Shown here piece after piece: positions 4,908 to 28,594 of a DNA stretch of 64,000 bases. Under the pieces are notes generated by a model that did not search any database, was not told the DNA's origin, and worked only from the letters and a program-made list of their open reading frames with translations. Numbering within the stretch: position 1 is the first letter of the stretch; every line of letters starts with the position of its first letter. The DNA lies in the NCBI RefSeq assembly GCF_003315245.1, contig NZ_QNRT01000001.1, positions 1,149,457 through 1,213,456 of the forward strand. The letters run 5' to 3'. The DNA is from Arenicella xantha (GTDB lineage Bacteria > Pseudomonadota > Gammaproteobacteria > Arenicellales > Arenicellaceae). The position numbers and the translations under genes are program-made.

Positions 4908-6113
4908 CTATTCGCTGATAGCCGATACCGCAACACTCGCGCTCTGCATATAAGCCTGCACGCGATCCGCGGCATTTTGCCGAATATTCATATGAAACAG
5001 AGTCCAATCGTTCGGATGTAGGCTACGGTCCTCACCAGCACCGCGATTATCGAACGGCGAACCGAGCTGCGGATCCACCATTAGGGAGCCATCTTGATGA
5101 CAACGAGCGGACGTATAGCCAACCATCGGGGCACCGATAGTGGTGTACTTAAACCCTGGGTTTTGGTTTTTTAAAAGTTCAGGAATAGCGTCTTTCCATT
5201 GCATCGGCACGGCACCGAGGTTAGCTTGCTTCGGAACTTTTTGTTGATCAACTTTCCAACTTAGAGGGTTCACACATAACGTTCTAGGTCGGTTAGCCCA
5301 TTCCCATCCACTCGGATACCAATAAGGTAAGACGCCGTCTGGGTCGCGGCCGGTGCCTTCTACATCATAGGTGTCATAGGTCACTAAACACCCGGTCATA
5401 CCAGCCTCAGTGCATAAAGGAATATTAGGGATCGTGACGGTTAGCGCATCGCTGGGAATCCAATAACCGATTAGATATGCGGCGACCATGCTCTTTCGCA
5501 GCGCTTTGCCATCAACATGATTCGCCAGCAACCTTAAAGAGTGCAGCGTGCCTTGACTATGACTGGCCAGGATAAACGGTCGTGCTGGATCCCGATGTTT
5601 CAAAAAATAGAGAAATGCTTGCTCCACATCTTGATACGCCAAATCCAGCGCTTGAATAGCGGCTGGTGAGCCGGTTTTAATAAAGGCAGCTAGGTGTGCC
5701 TGACGGTAGCGTGGCGCATACACGCGACAACACGAACTGAACGTACTCGCCACTGTTGCCAACACATGCTCAGTCCCTTGCTCGGCAAACTCGTTAGTCG
5801 ACATCGCTGAATTCCAAGAGCCACCACTAAAATACGTGGTCGGCTGTACAAAAAACACGTCAACCGGTGCCTGCTCTGGCACGATGGTAGTAACCCCGTC
5901 TGGTGCGAGGTCGGCACTGTCGTTGACACCCGGATGCGCGCTCCAGAACGCTAGCTGACTATAGTCAGGTGCCGCTGGTACTTGCTCTATCGAAAAATCG
6001 ACTGGCGGATTGATGTACCACGCAATAATCTGCTTATGAAAGGCAAGCAAGCCACCGATGAGTAGAACAGCAACCAGCACCGCTCGTTTAATAGGCGAGT
6101 TTTTAAACAGCAT
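4908..6113 (-). CDS. DUF3089 family alpha/beta hydrolase-like protein
   Basis: A 401-residue protein with an N-terminal signal anchor (about 8-25). The family hallmark VDVFFVQPTTYF (about 84-95) and the following SGGSWN identify DUF3089. A serine-hydrolase nucleophile elbow, ASHSQGT, is at 183-189 with Ser186 as candidate nucleophile. The family adopts an alpha/beta hydrolase fold; some members are annotated as lysophospholipase- or tannase-like, but no substrate is established. It is probably membrane-tethered facing the periplasm. It stands alone, converging on cls 23 bases away with no clear terminator between. The family call is good; the function is open. Confidence 0.8.
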   Translation of the reverse strand: MLFKNSPIKRAVLVAVLLIGGLLAFHKQIIAWYINPPVDFSIEQVPAAPDYSQLAFWSAHPGVNDSADLAPDGVTTIVPEQAPVDVFFVQPTTYFSGGSWNSAMSTNEFAEQGTEHVLATVASTFSSCCRVYAPRYRQAHLAAFIKTGSPAAIQALDLAYQDVEQAFLYFLKHRDPARPFILASHSQGTLHSLRLLANHVDGKALRKSMVAAYLIGYWIPSDALTVTIPNIPLCTEAGMTGCLVTYDTYDVEGTGRDPDGVLPYWYPSGWEWANRPRTLCVNPLSWKVDQQKVPKQANLGAVPMQWKDAIPELLKNQNPGFKYTTIGAPMVGYTSARCHQDGSLMVDPQLGSPFDNRGAGEDRSLHPNDWTLFHMNIRQNAADRVQAYMQSASVAVSAISE

Positions 6114-6189: not shown

Positions 6190-8490
6190 CTATAGCTCGT
6201 CTTCCGCGACCACCACCAAACAATCTTCCGCGACCAGCGTAAACACTTTGTCTTTAAGCGGGATCAACTCGACACCACTATTGGCAGCTTGATCACTCTC
6301 AAGCGCCTTAATTTTGACGCCAAAACAAACCTCTTCACGGTTCTGTGCGGCCGCAATTAAATCGGCAAAACTAAGCTCAACTGGAAATGAATCAAAATAC
6401 AACGACAGCGGCTTAAGGTAGATCTCTGAACCGTCTTCTTGAAAAATATCATCGTAAACATCCTTGATGTGCCGACTTTCAGATATTTGCGCCATGATCA
6501 TACTAACCAGTCGATTCGATATGATCATATCTTTGACGCCGGCTTTAGCGATCAACTCATAGTTTTGTGATTCCAGCACTTCGGTGATTAATTTGGTTTC
6601 ACCATGCGATGGTTCCAAGCTCTGAAAAATACTTCGCAGTAACAGCAAGGTGACAATATTTTCTGAATCCACTTGTTGCGTATCTTTGTCTTCGCGAGCA
6701 CTGGCCAAAATAATGATATTGCCGTACCGGCTGGGCTGTAAGTCGAGCAACGATGCGCGATCAAGCGGATTAATATCAATCAAATTTATTTTAATGTTTT
6801 CAATATCTTGATCGATGCGCGCCAGTTCGTCTTGCTCGCTCTGACTGGCTTGATAAATCACCACGTCAATCTCGCTACCCTCTTGCACATAGTCGGAAAA
6901 TTCTCTGAGGATAGTTTCGGATTTGTGGTTCCAACCAACAATCAGCTCTCGCTCTGTACCTTGTTCTGCGCGCGTATTAAGTGCTGGAAACTGATTCGGT
7001 AGCGCAACCGGTGTGGCCTGGAAATCAATCGTTGAATCGTCATCCGCAACAATGAGGACTTCATCGTCGCTCTGCATTTGATAATCAACCGGTGGGTTAA
7101 TCAGCAACTCACCGCTGGCATGTCTTACCCCAATCGGCACACCGTCAGGAAAATTGAACGCCAGCTTACCGAAACGCTCACCGCGCCAGTCGGTGCCATA
7201 GAAATACATTTCGCAGCCATCAAACGATAAGATTTCGTTGTAGACCACCGACAAACCGACTGATCGAGATGTTTGCACTAACAACTTAGCTAAAATATTG
7301 GCTGTATCTAACGTGACTACATAGTCTGGGAAGGTGTTTTCGATGATGTCTCGATAAGTATCGTTATACACTTCCGCAACGATTGCATAGTCGTCTTTAT
7401 CGACACTTCGCGTGGTGGCAGCCAACACAGTTTGAATGACCATTGCATCACTGGCGGTCTTGGCGGCATCGGTATCGGTATCCGCGCAGCCGGCCAAAAC
7501 AATCACCGACTTAGCTGATTCTATCGACACCATGTCTAAGTTCACCAGAATGGTGCCTTTGCCGGAGCGTGTCACCACTCGGGTACTTTTTGTATTCGGC
7601 ATTCGCAACCGAAGCACATCATCAATCTCTTGTTTGTCTCGGTCAGCTAGAATAACTACCGCAGCATCGTTTTCGCTTTCGTTAGCCCATACCAATTCAC
7701 GCAATATCTCGATAACGCGCTGCTCGTCCCAGCCAATAATCAATGTATGATCGTCTTCGATCACCTTAGAGCGGCCACGCTTTAGCTCGGCTAATTTCTG
7801 ATCTAAGCCAGTGGTGATCACTGCCACCAAAGCTGACAACATAATGACCCCAGCCAAGCCCGCAATAATGGCGAAAAATTTGTACCAAGCGGATGACAGA
7901 ATGTCCTGCGCCATATTACCGGGATCGGTCAGTTGCAGGAAAGTCACATAGAGGTTGCCAAAGAAATCCAAAGATTCATATTGTTGGGCAATACCCGGAC
8001 TGAGCATATGCAACAAACCACGCAAACCGGCAACCACCAAAAACAGTGCGACAAACACAAACAATAGAGCCTTGAACGACGACGTACTGCCTTTTGCCAT
8101 AAAGGTGTCGAAGCGATACTGCAACTTATTCTTGAGTGACACAGCGCCAACAGTATCGGCGTCCCGAGCAAAGTCCATCGACCGATCCACCACTTGCTCA
8201 ACGGCTTCAGGTTCGGTTTGATAGCTCTCGGTTTGATCGGGTATTAGCTCTTCAACATGCTCGAGTATTTCGATGTCAGCTTCCGCACCGATTTTCTCTA
8301 ATTGACCTTTAACGTGATTAGCTCGGTTCGGATTAGTGGTCCGCGAGACGATGACCGGCTCACCACTGAGTAGCACCTCAGTATAAGACTCATCTTTTTT
8401 CAAGGCTCGAGCAAGCTTACTCGCCACCGCTTGCGGATCGGCTCCGGGCTTGGTCTTGCCTGAGAAAATCACATGATATCGCTGACCCAT
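6190..8490 (-). CDS. CASTOR/POLLUX-type RCK ion channel with extra N-terminal domain
   Basis: A 766-residue membrane protein. Residues 1-75 form a small soluble domain beginning RYHVIFSGKTKPGAD. I recognise this type of domain from the N-termini of unrelated bacterial membrane proteins (a '...FSG...PG' alpha/beta module), but not its function. A linker leads to two membrane helices (about 139-161 and 203-227) around a pore loop whose filter region reads LTDPGNM (187-193), not TVGYG. Two RCK/TrkA-N-like domains follow, the first from about 248 (HTLIIGWDEQRV) and the second near 530 (ELIVGWNHKSE). This architecture matches bacterial homologues of plant CASTOR/POLLUX channels. GGGAG five bases before the ATG supports the start. 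It has no operon partner. The ion selectivity is unknown. Confidence 0.82.
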   Translation of the reverse strand: MGQRYHVIFSGKTKPGADPQAVASKLARALKKDESYTEVLLSGEPVIVSRTTNPNRANHVKGQLEKIGAEADIEILEHVEELIPDQTESYQTEPEAVEQVVDRSMDFARDADTVGAVSLKNKLQYRFDTFMAKGSTSSFKALLFVFVALFLVVAGLRGLLHMLSPGIAQQYESLDFFGNLYVTFLQLTDPGNMAQDILSSAWYKFFAIIAGLAGVIMLSALVAVITTGLDQKLAELKRGRSKVIEDDHTLIIGWDEQRVIEILRELVWANESENDAAVVILADRDKQEIDDVLRLRMPNTKSTRVVTRSGKGTILVNLDMVSIESAKSVIVLAGCADTDTDAAKTASDAMVIQTVLAATTRSVDKDDYAIVAEVYNDTYRDIIENTFPDYVVTLDTANILAKLLVQTSRSVGLSVVYNEILSFDGCEMYFYGTDWRGERFGKLAFNFPDGVPIGVRHASGELLINPPVDYQMQSDDEVLIVADDDSTIDFQATPVALPNQFPALNTRAEQGTERELIVGWNHKSETILREFSDYVQEGSEIDVVIYQASQSEQDELARIDQDIENIKINLIDINPLDRASLLDLQPSRYGNIIILASAREDKDTQQVDSENIVTLLLLRSIFQSLEPSHGETKLITEVLESQNYELIAKAGVKDMIISNRLVSMIMAQISESRHIKDVYDDIFQEDGSEIYLKPLSLYFDSFPVELSFADLIAAAQNREEVCFGVKIKALESDQAANSGVELIPLKDKVFTLVAEDCLVVVAEDEL

Positions 8491-26481: not shown

Positions 26482-27381
26482 ATGGCAAATAGCCCGGCTG
26501 ACAATGTCGACAATTATCTGACCAGCCTCTCAGTCGAACGGCGACTATCACTACACACCACTCGTGCTTACCGGCGTGACATCACAAAACTTATCCAGTT
26601 CTGTGATCAACGCGGCGCACTGCTATGGCAAGGTCTCAATAATCATATTGCACGACTATTCGCCGCCAGCTTAAACGCCAATGGCATGAGTGCAAAAAGT
26701 ATCCAGCGCATCCTGTCGGCTAATCGCGGATTCTGCCAGTATTTAATCCAACAACGCCAGCTAACGGCAAATCCATTTGACGACGTGCGCGCGCCAAAAG
26801 GCGAGAAACGGTTGCCCAAAACACTATCGGTCGACCAAGTCACCTCGCTCGTGGAGATTAATGTGAATGACCCACTTAGCTATCGAGACAAAGCGGTGCT
26901 GGAGCTGTTTTACTCTAGCGGGCTGCGCTTGGCCGAGTTATGCGGGCTAGACTTGCACGATCTAAACCTTTCGGAACGCATGATGCGAGTTAGCGGTAAG
27001 GGCAATAAAATGCGCGATCTACCGATAGGTCGGCAAGCGGACCAAGCAATCCGAGCTTGGCTACTACAACGTAATACGCTGCCATTAAAAGATTACGATG
27101 CCTTGTTCGTTAGTCAGCATGGCCGACGCATCAGCCCCCGTTCGATTCAAGCAAGAGTAAAATATTGGGCAACTAAACAGGGCATCGAAATATCAGTCAG
27201 CCCACACATGTTACGACATTCATTTGCCAGCCATCTGTTAGAATCAAGCGGAGAATTACGTGCCGTGCAAGAACTCTTGGGGCACGCCAACATAAGCACT
27301 ACCCAGATCTACACGCATCTAGATTTCCAGCATCTTGCGCAAGTGTATGACGACGCTCATCCGAGAGCTAAAAAGAAATAG
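26482..27381 (+). CDS. xerC: Tyrosine recombinase XerC
   Basis: A 299-residue site-specific recombinase that, with XerD, resolves chromosome dimers at dif. The catalytic set is complete: Arg149 (SSGLRLAEL), Lys173 (SGKGNKMR), His242 and Arg245 (HMLRHSFASHLL), His268 (LLGHANIS) and Tyr277 (TQIYTHLD). The N-terminal SAM-like DNA-binding domain is intact. Length and position after dapF-DUF484 identify XerC rather than XerD or an integron or phage integrase. Confidence 0.95.
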   Translation: MANSPADNVDNYLTSLSVERRLSLHTTRAYRRDITKLIQFCDQRGALLWQGLNNHIARLFAASLNANGMSAKSIQRILSANRGFCQYLIQQRQLTANPFDDVRAPKGEKRLPKTLSVDQVTSLVEINVNDPLSYRDKAVLELFYSSGLRLAELCGLDLHDLNLSERMMRVSGKGNKMRDLPIGRQADQAIRAWLLQRNTLPLKDYDALFVSQHGRRISPRSIQARVKYWATKQGIEISVSPHMLRHSFASHLLESSGELRAVQELLGHANISTTQIYTHLDFQHLAQVYDDAHPRAKKK

Positions 27382-27388
27382 AGATCCT

Positions 27389-28594
27389 ATGCAACCTTAT
27401 TCGAATACGGCCAAAACCTTACACTGGTTGGTCGCCGGACTTATTGTCAGCCAATATATTCTTGCCAAGCTATCCGAAATAGCCAAAGACAACGACGAAA
27501 TACTCAATCAGCTGGCGATACTGGCGAACCATAAATCAATCGGCATCACGATATTGCTGTTAGCGATTGTACGATTAGTTCACCGACTTAGACACACACC
27601 GCCGCCGCTGCCGCAAACCATGCCTCGCTGGCAACAGCTCGCCTCAAACGCGTCACATGCGCTGTTGTACGGCTTCTTATTCGCATTGCCGATTACCGGC
27701 TGGTTAATGTCGTCAGCCAAGGCCTACTCAGTAAGCTGGTTCAACCTGTTTCCTTTGCCCGACTTAATCGCGCCAAGTGAAACCTGGTATAGCCTTATGC
27801 ACGATGCCCACCACTGGCTTGGTGAGGCTCTGTTAATTTTAGCCGTAATACACGTTGCGGCGGCACTGAAGCATCACTTTTTTGATCGCGACACCGTGCT
27901 AAAACGTATGTCTAGCAAATTAGGCTGGTGGATACTCGCCGGTTCAATCCTGTTATGTGTTGTTGTGTTTGGACGAGTTTTAAGCACCAACACTGCGCCG
28001 AATGGTCCAGACACCTCCGCACCGAGCAGCAGCACAAACAGCATCAACCAACCAGCGCCGCAGGCTACCGAAACTGAGAACACTCAGAGTACCTTAGCCG
28101 CGTGGCTAATCGATTACCCTAAGAGCTATATCCGGTTTACTGGCGACCAAGCTGGTGCCGCGTTCACTGGCGAATGGCAGCAATGGCAGGCTACTATTCG
28201 ATTTGATAAAGACACACTCGCCCAGTCGCGCTTCGAAGTGGAAATTGATCCTGCATCTGCCGACTCAGGTGATCAAGAGCGAGATCAAACAATCGCCACA
28301 GCTGATTTTTTCGACGCTACGAATCACCCAAAAGCAACCTTTCAAGCCACCGAATTTAACACCGCTGCGTCCGGCTACCGCACACTTGGAACGCTAACGA
28401 TGAAAGGCATCAATAAGCCGCTGGATTTCGTATTCAATGTCACACAAGAGCAAGGCACTCAGGTACTGACCGGATCGGCAAAGATCGACCGACTGGCATG
28501 GAATATAGGTACCGGAGACTGGCGCGACACCTCTTGGGTCGGACAAGATGTCAACGTTGAAGTGCGCGTACAAACACAGGTTGAATCAAACTAA
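27389..28594 (+). CDS. Cytochrome b561 - YceI domain fusion
   Basis: A 401-residue two-domain protein. Residues 1-165 are a b561-type four-helix di-heme cytochrome with candidate heme histidines His12, His48, His142 and His155. A further helix (about 180-196) and a Ser/Pro/Thr-rich linker (200-235) follow. Residues 237-400 are a periplasmic YceI domain, a lipocalin-like barrel that in other proteins binds polyisoprenoid lipids such as ubiquinone-8. The two domains are commonly separate adjacent genes (as in E. coli yceJ-yceI). It probably moves electrons between the membrane quinone pool and a YceI-bound lipid. It starts eight bases after xerC. Confidence 0.88.
   Translation: MQPYSNTAKTLHWLVAGLIVSQYILAKLSEIAKDNDEILNQLAILANHKSIGITILLLAIVRLVHRLRHTPPPLPQTMPRWQQLASNASHALLYGFLFALPITGWLMSSAKAYSVSWFNLFPLPDLIAPSETWYSLMHDAHHWLGEALLILAVIHVAAALKHHFFDRDTVLKRMSSKLGWWILAGSILLCVVVFGRVLSTNTAPNGPDTSAPSSSTNSINQPAPQATETENTQSTLAAWLIDYPKSYIRFTGDQAGAAFTGEWQQWQATIRFDKDTLAQSRFEVEIDPASADSGDQERDQTIATADFFDATNHPKATFQATEFNTAASGYRTLGTLTMKGINKPLDFVFNVTQEQGTQVLTGSAKIDRLAWNIGTGDWRDTSWVGQDVNVEVRVQTQVESN

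Follow-up and report, generated by a model that had tools for sequence, protein, structure and literature searches.

A bacterial CASTOR/POLLUX-family channel carrying an L7/L12-like N-terminal domain

A channel gene in the window (the whole 64,000-nucleotide stretch of Arenicella xantha DNA analysed here) raises two questions: which ion does its product conduct, and what is the domain placed in front of the pore? The ORF (8490..6190, minus strand; Table 1) encodes a bacterial member of the CASTOR/POLLUX/DMI1 family with a two-transmembrane (2-TM) pore and a tandem RCK gating ring, as an earlier note made from the letters alone had recognized in calling it CASTOR/POLLUX-like. In Pfam searches the 766-aa ORF matched Castor_Poll_mid (PF06241, E = 3.7e-24, 85.2 bits against a cut-off of 26.7) and, also over its cut-off, Slo-like_RCK (PF22614, 5.5e-8). 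Its best PDB sequence match was the CASTOR gating ring 6o6j (6.1e-60), and a PDB profile search with the channel returned CASTOR/DMI1 rings at 1e-103 or better, with BK and MthK next and far weaker. When the full channel was predicted from 36 aligned sequences (mean pLDDT 84.8), Foldseek ranked LjCASTOR (6o7c) first (2.5e-40, TM 0.89 on the target). Pore and ring are ordinary for the family; the N-terminal addition is unusual and lineage-specific.

Table 1 Features of the channel gene and its downstream neighbour (window positions)
Feature	Position	Strand	Basis or remark
Whole channel gene	6190..8490	(-)	766 aa, ATG start
L7/L12-C-terminal-domain-like module (N-domain), residues 1-78	8257..8490	(-)	prediction, fold search, profiles; beta-alpha-alpha-beta-alpha-beta
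Poorly conserved linker, residues 79-118	8137..8256	(-)	pLDDT <50 at 79-115
First membrane helix, residues 135-163	8002..8088	(-)	structure prediction, membrane-segment scan
Pore helix and filter region, residues 176-196	7903..7965	(-)	pore helix 176-188 predicted
Second membrane helix running into RCK linker, residues 201-237	7780..7890	(-)	structure prediction, membrane-segment scan
Tandem RCK gating ring, residues 243-766	6193..7764	(-)	6o6j sequence match, 6o7c fold match
A269-S272, equivalent to CASTOR A342 and S345, Ca(III) site	7675..7686	(-)	alignment with plant chain
F423-E427, equivalent to CASTOR Ca(II) loop (E493 = E427)	7210..7224	(-)	alignment with plant chain
D484-D485, equivalent to CASTOR D553-D554, Ca(III) site	7036..7041	(-)	alignment with plant chain
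DUF3089 neighbour, downstream	4908..6113	(-), same as channel	Pfam (PF11288, 1.2e-62)

The gene is a patchy accessory one: PF06241 was found above cut-off in 3 of 18 genus genomes, 9 of 369 class genomes and none of 14 control genomes, and a match in G014 was rejected as lying below the cut-off in a RimK-like protein. Comparisons were based on 48 related loci taken from genome contigs. Alignment A4 has 36 rows, one for the window and the others for 35 of these loci; loci with cut or broken frames (L029, L034, L040, L048, L052, L053, L062, L064, L066 and L067) were left out, as were, by choice, the complete L041, L049 and L057 (L041 and L049 are near copies of included rows). The channel tree combines the 36 A4 rows with L004, L006, L008 and L009; a long-branch warning applies to L009, L058 and L051, none of which adjoins the clade with the N-domain. 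Bacterial CASTOR-like channels that lack the N-domain (L028, L030-L033, L035 and others) have the same filter and Ca sites and, in most rows, show an identity of 42-58% with the window channel across the aligned region.

The earlier note had placed the filter at LTDPGNM (residues 187-193), contrasted it with the potassium-channel signature and regarded ion specificity as an open question. The site stands, and a canonical K+ filter is rejected because TVGYG is absent; what does not stand is the anomaly, since D-x-G-N without TVGYG is the signature of the family as set out by Kim et al. 2019 (PMC6697748). The filter reads T188-D189-P190-G191-N192-M193-A194, and its plant CASTOR counterpart A-D265-S/A-G-N-H-A (PMC6697748). 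Of the 36 bacterial rows in the alignment, 34 have D189, the exceptions being L038 and L046 with Ala, and every row has G191. According to the same source, plant CASTOR is Ca2+-selective as measured (PCa/PNa ~30), and the substitution D265N abolishes its current. Taken together, this conservation and the plant data indicate that the filter is the family's own and that the likeliest permeant ion is Ca2+. Two more distant class relatives with PF06241, L011 and L016, have LPGF and LRGF, judged by eye, at the apparent filter place, without the Asp; given these, the wider PF06241 family may have other selectivities.

We then carried the published CASTOR ion sites onto the channel through the alignment with the plant chain and counted each over the 36 rows. 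The acidic ligands of the Ca(II) and Ca(III) sites are invariant: E493 of Ca(II) corresponds to E427, and D553 and D554 of Ca(III) to D484 and D485, each in 36/36 rows. Also at Ca(III), A342 corresponds to A269 in 36/36 rows and S345 to S272 in 31/36. Substitutions in the plant channel lower activity (E493A) or leave none (E493Q), as described in PMC6697748. The Ca(I) site is not kept, because its ligands D442 and D444 are replaced by N376 and T378 and the inter-lobe R589 and R590 by N521 and H522. The Ca(I) ligands are a trait of the plant members and mostly absent from the 36 aligned bacterial rows; their loss therefore lowers sameness with plant CASTOR, not kinship with the family. The plant CASTOR/POLLUX/DMI1 nuclear-envelope Ca2+ channels (6o6j, 6o7a, 6o7c and 7vm8) thus share with the bacterial channel the tandem RCK ring, Castor_Poll_mid, the D-x-G-N filter and the Ca(II) and Ca(III) ligands. 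Apart from Ca(I), they differ in lacking the L7/L12-type module and in their membrane part: four segments are predicted for them (PMC6697748), whereas two helices are predicted here, where the membrane-segment scan covered the first ~265 residues.

Neighbouring genes were surveyed in the 48 loci and the window; with a minimum length of 90 aa, 342 ORFs lie within 4.5 kb of the channel, and 84 of these within 300 bp. In 8 of the 48 loci, a gene of the Na+/Ca2+-exchanger family PF01699, which includes exchangers of other specificities, directly adjoins the channel on the same strand, the gap ranging from -10 to 268 bp. A profile built from the eight exchangers matches its building sequences by construction, so that its informative part is the other 334 of the 342 ORFs within 4.5 kb, where it found no further match. 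The exchangers are of two subtypes, ~20-31% identical to each other: type one lies upstream of the channel (L031 and L034), and type two lies upstream in L030, L035, L040 and L055 and downstream in L056 and L059. Because the channel tree places L031, the L030/L035/L055 group and L056/L059 away from one another (L034 and L040 are not in it), at least three exchanger arrangements look separate. No exchanger was seen beside the channel in the 10 loci with an N-domain or in the window, some loci ending close to the channel; the exchanger context therefore supports the family and not directly the N-domain branch. A Bax1-I gene adjoins the channel downstream in L023 and L025, and Bacillus subtilis YetJ, of the Bax1-I family, is listed in a review as a Ca2+ leak channel (PMC10574481). 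The DUF3089 gene of the window adjoins the channel in both same-genus homologues as well (L003 and L004). An upstream YhhN gene is unsupported as a conserved partner: of 18 genus genomes 7 have it, and in G015 it lies ~9 kb away from the channel. When the channel was submitted to PADLOC with its two neighbours, no defence-system match was returned, and a promoter and terminator scan gave no more sites than shuffles beyond noise.

Turning to the N-domain, the earlier note had set residues 1-75 apart as a separate alpha/beta module, and residues 1-78 are indeed predicted as a folded unit (mean pLDDT 81.8 when predicted alone from 11 sequences; in the full model, blocks of 78-94), with the low-confidence linker coming next. 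Compared with a same-genus homologue, identity is 59% over the 78 residues of the N-domain, 17.5% in the linker and 86% in the channel, with dN of 0.31, 0.88 and 0.095, respectively; no dN/dS ratio is given because synonymous sites are saturated. By these figures, the N-domain behaves as translated protein. A profile of channel N-domains also found the domain in proteins that the profile did not contain (for example, at E = 1.7e-21, 5.0e-21 and 2.8e-20), which makes it more than a chance resemblance. Since the ring is cytosolic and the membrane helices number two, the N-terminus of the channel should lie in the cytosol.

On channels, the N-domain is restricted. The same profile, whose building sequences match by construction so that the remaining loci are the informative part, found it in 10 of the 48 related loci; a six-frame search of the other 38, with E values up to 1 allowed, gave no match (L029 and L067 are cut before the place). 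The module is thus not an N-terminus shared by all bacterial homologues, and the open-access literature yielded no description of it on this channel class, in line with the earlier note. In the tree of the channel part, the 11 N-domain rows form one side of a single branch (support 99/95), and every one of 200 bootstrap trees accounts for the presence of the domain by a single change; the adjoining row, L028, lacks it. This single-clade occurrence makes one gain the simplest reading. The clade is mostly gammaproteobacterial. In genome G212 the N-domain sits in another protein, and the channel of that genome (L006) is without it.

Structure prediction and profile comparison indicate that the N-domain is a homologue of the C-terminal domain (CTD) of ribosomal protein L7/L12 with the same fold. 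Predicted alone, it shows the order of elements given in Table 1. Its best PDB match in Foldseek was the L7/L12 CTD 1ctf (E = 3.8e-3, probability 1.00), no match reaching 0.001. VIA-align gave its highest scores to ClpS (9b1p; Z 9.3, rmsd 2.5, 74 aligned) and 1ctf (Z 8.8, rmsd 2.2, 68 aligned); 39 of its first 40 rows are ClpS, L7/L12 or ribosome entries, the other is a malarial protein, and below these Z is at most 6.0. L7/L12 and ClpS part at the level of profiles. Using hhalign, the N-domain matched L7/L12 at 91.6% over 35 columns (12-row profile) and 96.1% over 54 columns (62 sequences). The controls to the latter stayed far lower: 16 channel-segment decoys did not exceed 2.2%, the reversed profile gave 0.2% and the 20 column shuffles peaked at 1.1%. 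Descent from the ClpS adaptor (PF02617) is rejected: the hhalign value was 0.9%, no better than the decoys, and the NDDYT stretch of the ClpS sequences compared is absent.

No Pfam or NCBIfam model reached its cut-off on the N-domain. PF00542, the L7/L12 model, matched the window N-domain at E = 0.045 (14.5 bits, below the cut-off of 25.9) and one of 46 N-domain-bearing proteins at 6.4e-4; with E values up to 10 allowed, it matched three of the 12 channel N-domains, the best of them at 0.013. Designed TIM barrels topped the PDB profile search with single stretches of at most 7.4 bits and were taken as a repeat artefact; L7/L12 entries followed at 0.091 and weaker. Unlike the L7/L12 CTD, the N-domain is fused to a channel, and it is about three residues longer between the first strand and the first helix. 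It also lacks the basic residues that we take to be those by which L7/L12 binds translation factors (K70, R73 and K84): the equivalents are S24, A27 and E38, and K or R occurs there in 16%, 3% and 10% of 62 sequences. The near-invariant positions (G68 in 62/62, G11 in 61/62, A57 in 59/62 and V22 in 54/62), mostly G, A, V or F, look structural. A literature search for a link between L7/L12 and ClpS, or for a fused L12 domain, found nothing relevant.

The N-domain also heads many unrelated gammaproteobacterial proteins, which bears out the remark of the earlier note that the module recurs in other bacterial membrane proteins. Matches over at least 60 model positions occurred in 55 of 232 gammaproteobacterial genomes; of 72 genomes matched in all, 17 with only shorter matches were left out, and the four of these that were examined all proved to be rplL, meaning that the profile cross-matches L7/L12 genes. 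In a phylum sample, 27 of 299 genomes matched at 1e-5, 23 from the same class and 4 from others. The domain begins within the first 45 residues in 46 of 47 proteins, and membrane-like segments are present in 20 of 21 longer carriers and none of 26 shorter ones; these 47 are not a random sample, as long frames were hand-picked for L098-L117. Among 46 proteins, the Pfam partners include DUF898 (2), M48 peptidase (2), DUF2628 (2) and a protein kinase (1), among others. One 650-aa protein (L104:1878-3827, plus strand) has four tandem copies, and many short soluble carriers (L071-L094) end in unplaced repeats of the type 'DTS..SVADVG..L'. A second carrier in the genome of the window (G000:C4:133752-133955, plus strand; locus L098:3241-6366) is 1042 aa long, has a single membrane-like segment and matches no Pfam model.

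How might these parts work together? We consider it fairly probable that the protein is a Ca2+-gated, Ca2+-permeable channel with an L7/L12-type docking head. Such a channel would be a tetrameric non-K+ cation channel of the inner membrane, in which cytosolic Ca2+ binding to the Ca(II) and Ca(III) clefts of the RCK ring would open the 2-TM pore, Asp189 of the filter would let Ca2+ in and an exchanger or pump would restore low Ca2+. By analogy with the plant channels and from gene context, Ca2+ conduction and gating are well supported. BK (Slo1) and MthK/GsuK share the RCK gating-ring architecture, with weak sequence similarity, and carry the K+ filter TVGYG. The channel described here could instead be an RCK-class channel that conducts K+, or monovalent ions without selectivity, and whose Ca sites are purely regulatory. 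The weak profile matches to BK and MthK would allow this, and PMC6697748 notes both that prokaryotic K+ channels often have RCK rings and that earlier work named the plant channels K+ channels. Such a channel seems unlikely in view of the missing TVGYG, the filter Asp in 34/36 rows, the Ca2+ selectivity of a plant channel with the same filter type (PMC6697748) and the exchangers beside the channel in 8/48 relatives.

For the N-domain, our preferred reading is that one clade gained a cytosolic head homologous to the L7/L12 CTD on a flexible tether of ~40 residues, and that this head would serve as a protein-docking module, bringing to the channel a cytosolic partner common to other carriers. 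We infer the docking role from fold kinship and the many partners: the L7/L12 CTD and ClpS bind proteins or peptides, which leans towards docking and away from ligand sensing. A ligand-sensing gate, the idea of the earlier note, in which the N-domain binds a small molecule or ion and passes the signal to the pore would suit its place next to the first membrane helix in sequence and the apparent need of the plant channel for further cellular factors (PMC6697748). It is nevertheless rather improbable, as a low-confidence linker of ~37 residues with 17.5% identity separates domain and pore, and the near-invariant positions look structural. We give even less credence to a ClpS- or L12-like adaptor whose task would be turnover or stress control, not gating, and which would deliver the channel to a protease or to translation factors. 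The fold matches to ClpS and L7/L12 would fit, as would the M48 peptidases fused to N-domains and the M48 gene directly upstream of an N-domain channel at L021:3-2345 (plus strand), but a single adjacent gene may be chance, ClpS profile similarity is nil and the factor-binding positions are seldom basic. It is similarly a long shot that the docking head ties a Ca2+-gated Ca2+ channel to a common cytosolic hub in translation or proteostasis. If so, proteins with the same head, namely M48 peptidases, DUF898 proteins, a kinase and repeat proteins, would be further contacts of the hub. Together with its exchanger-linked relatives, the channel would then be a prokaryotic signalling device for Ca2+ entry, one related to that behind legume nuclear Ca2+ spikes.

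To our knowledge, ligand-gated Ca2+ channels in bacteria are poorly known. Filter, Ca sites and neighbouring exchangers suggest that bacterial CASTOR relatives are Ca2+-gated Ca2+ channels and, if they are, the origin of a plant symbiosis channel becomes testable in small 2-TM bacterial proteins. The fold and descent of the lineage-specific N-terminal addition can now be named; the module is widespread and escaped every Pfam and NCBIfam model in this analysis, and the L7/L12 link offers a handle on its carriers.

Further genes were observed in passing. Class III cyclase genes (PF00211) occur near the channel in L022, L028 and L047, three loci that belong to the N-domain clade or are its sister row; as there can be many cyclase genes of this kind, the context carries no argument. 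Elsewhere in the window, the gene at 27335-28594 (plus strand) encodes a YceI domain fused to cytochrome b561.
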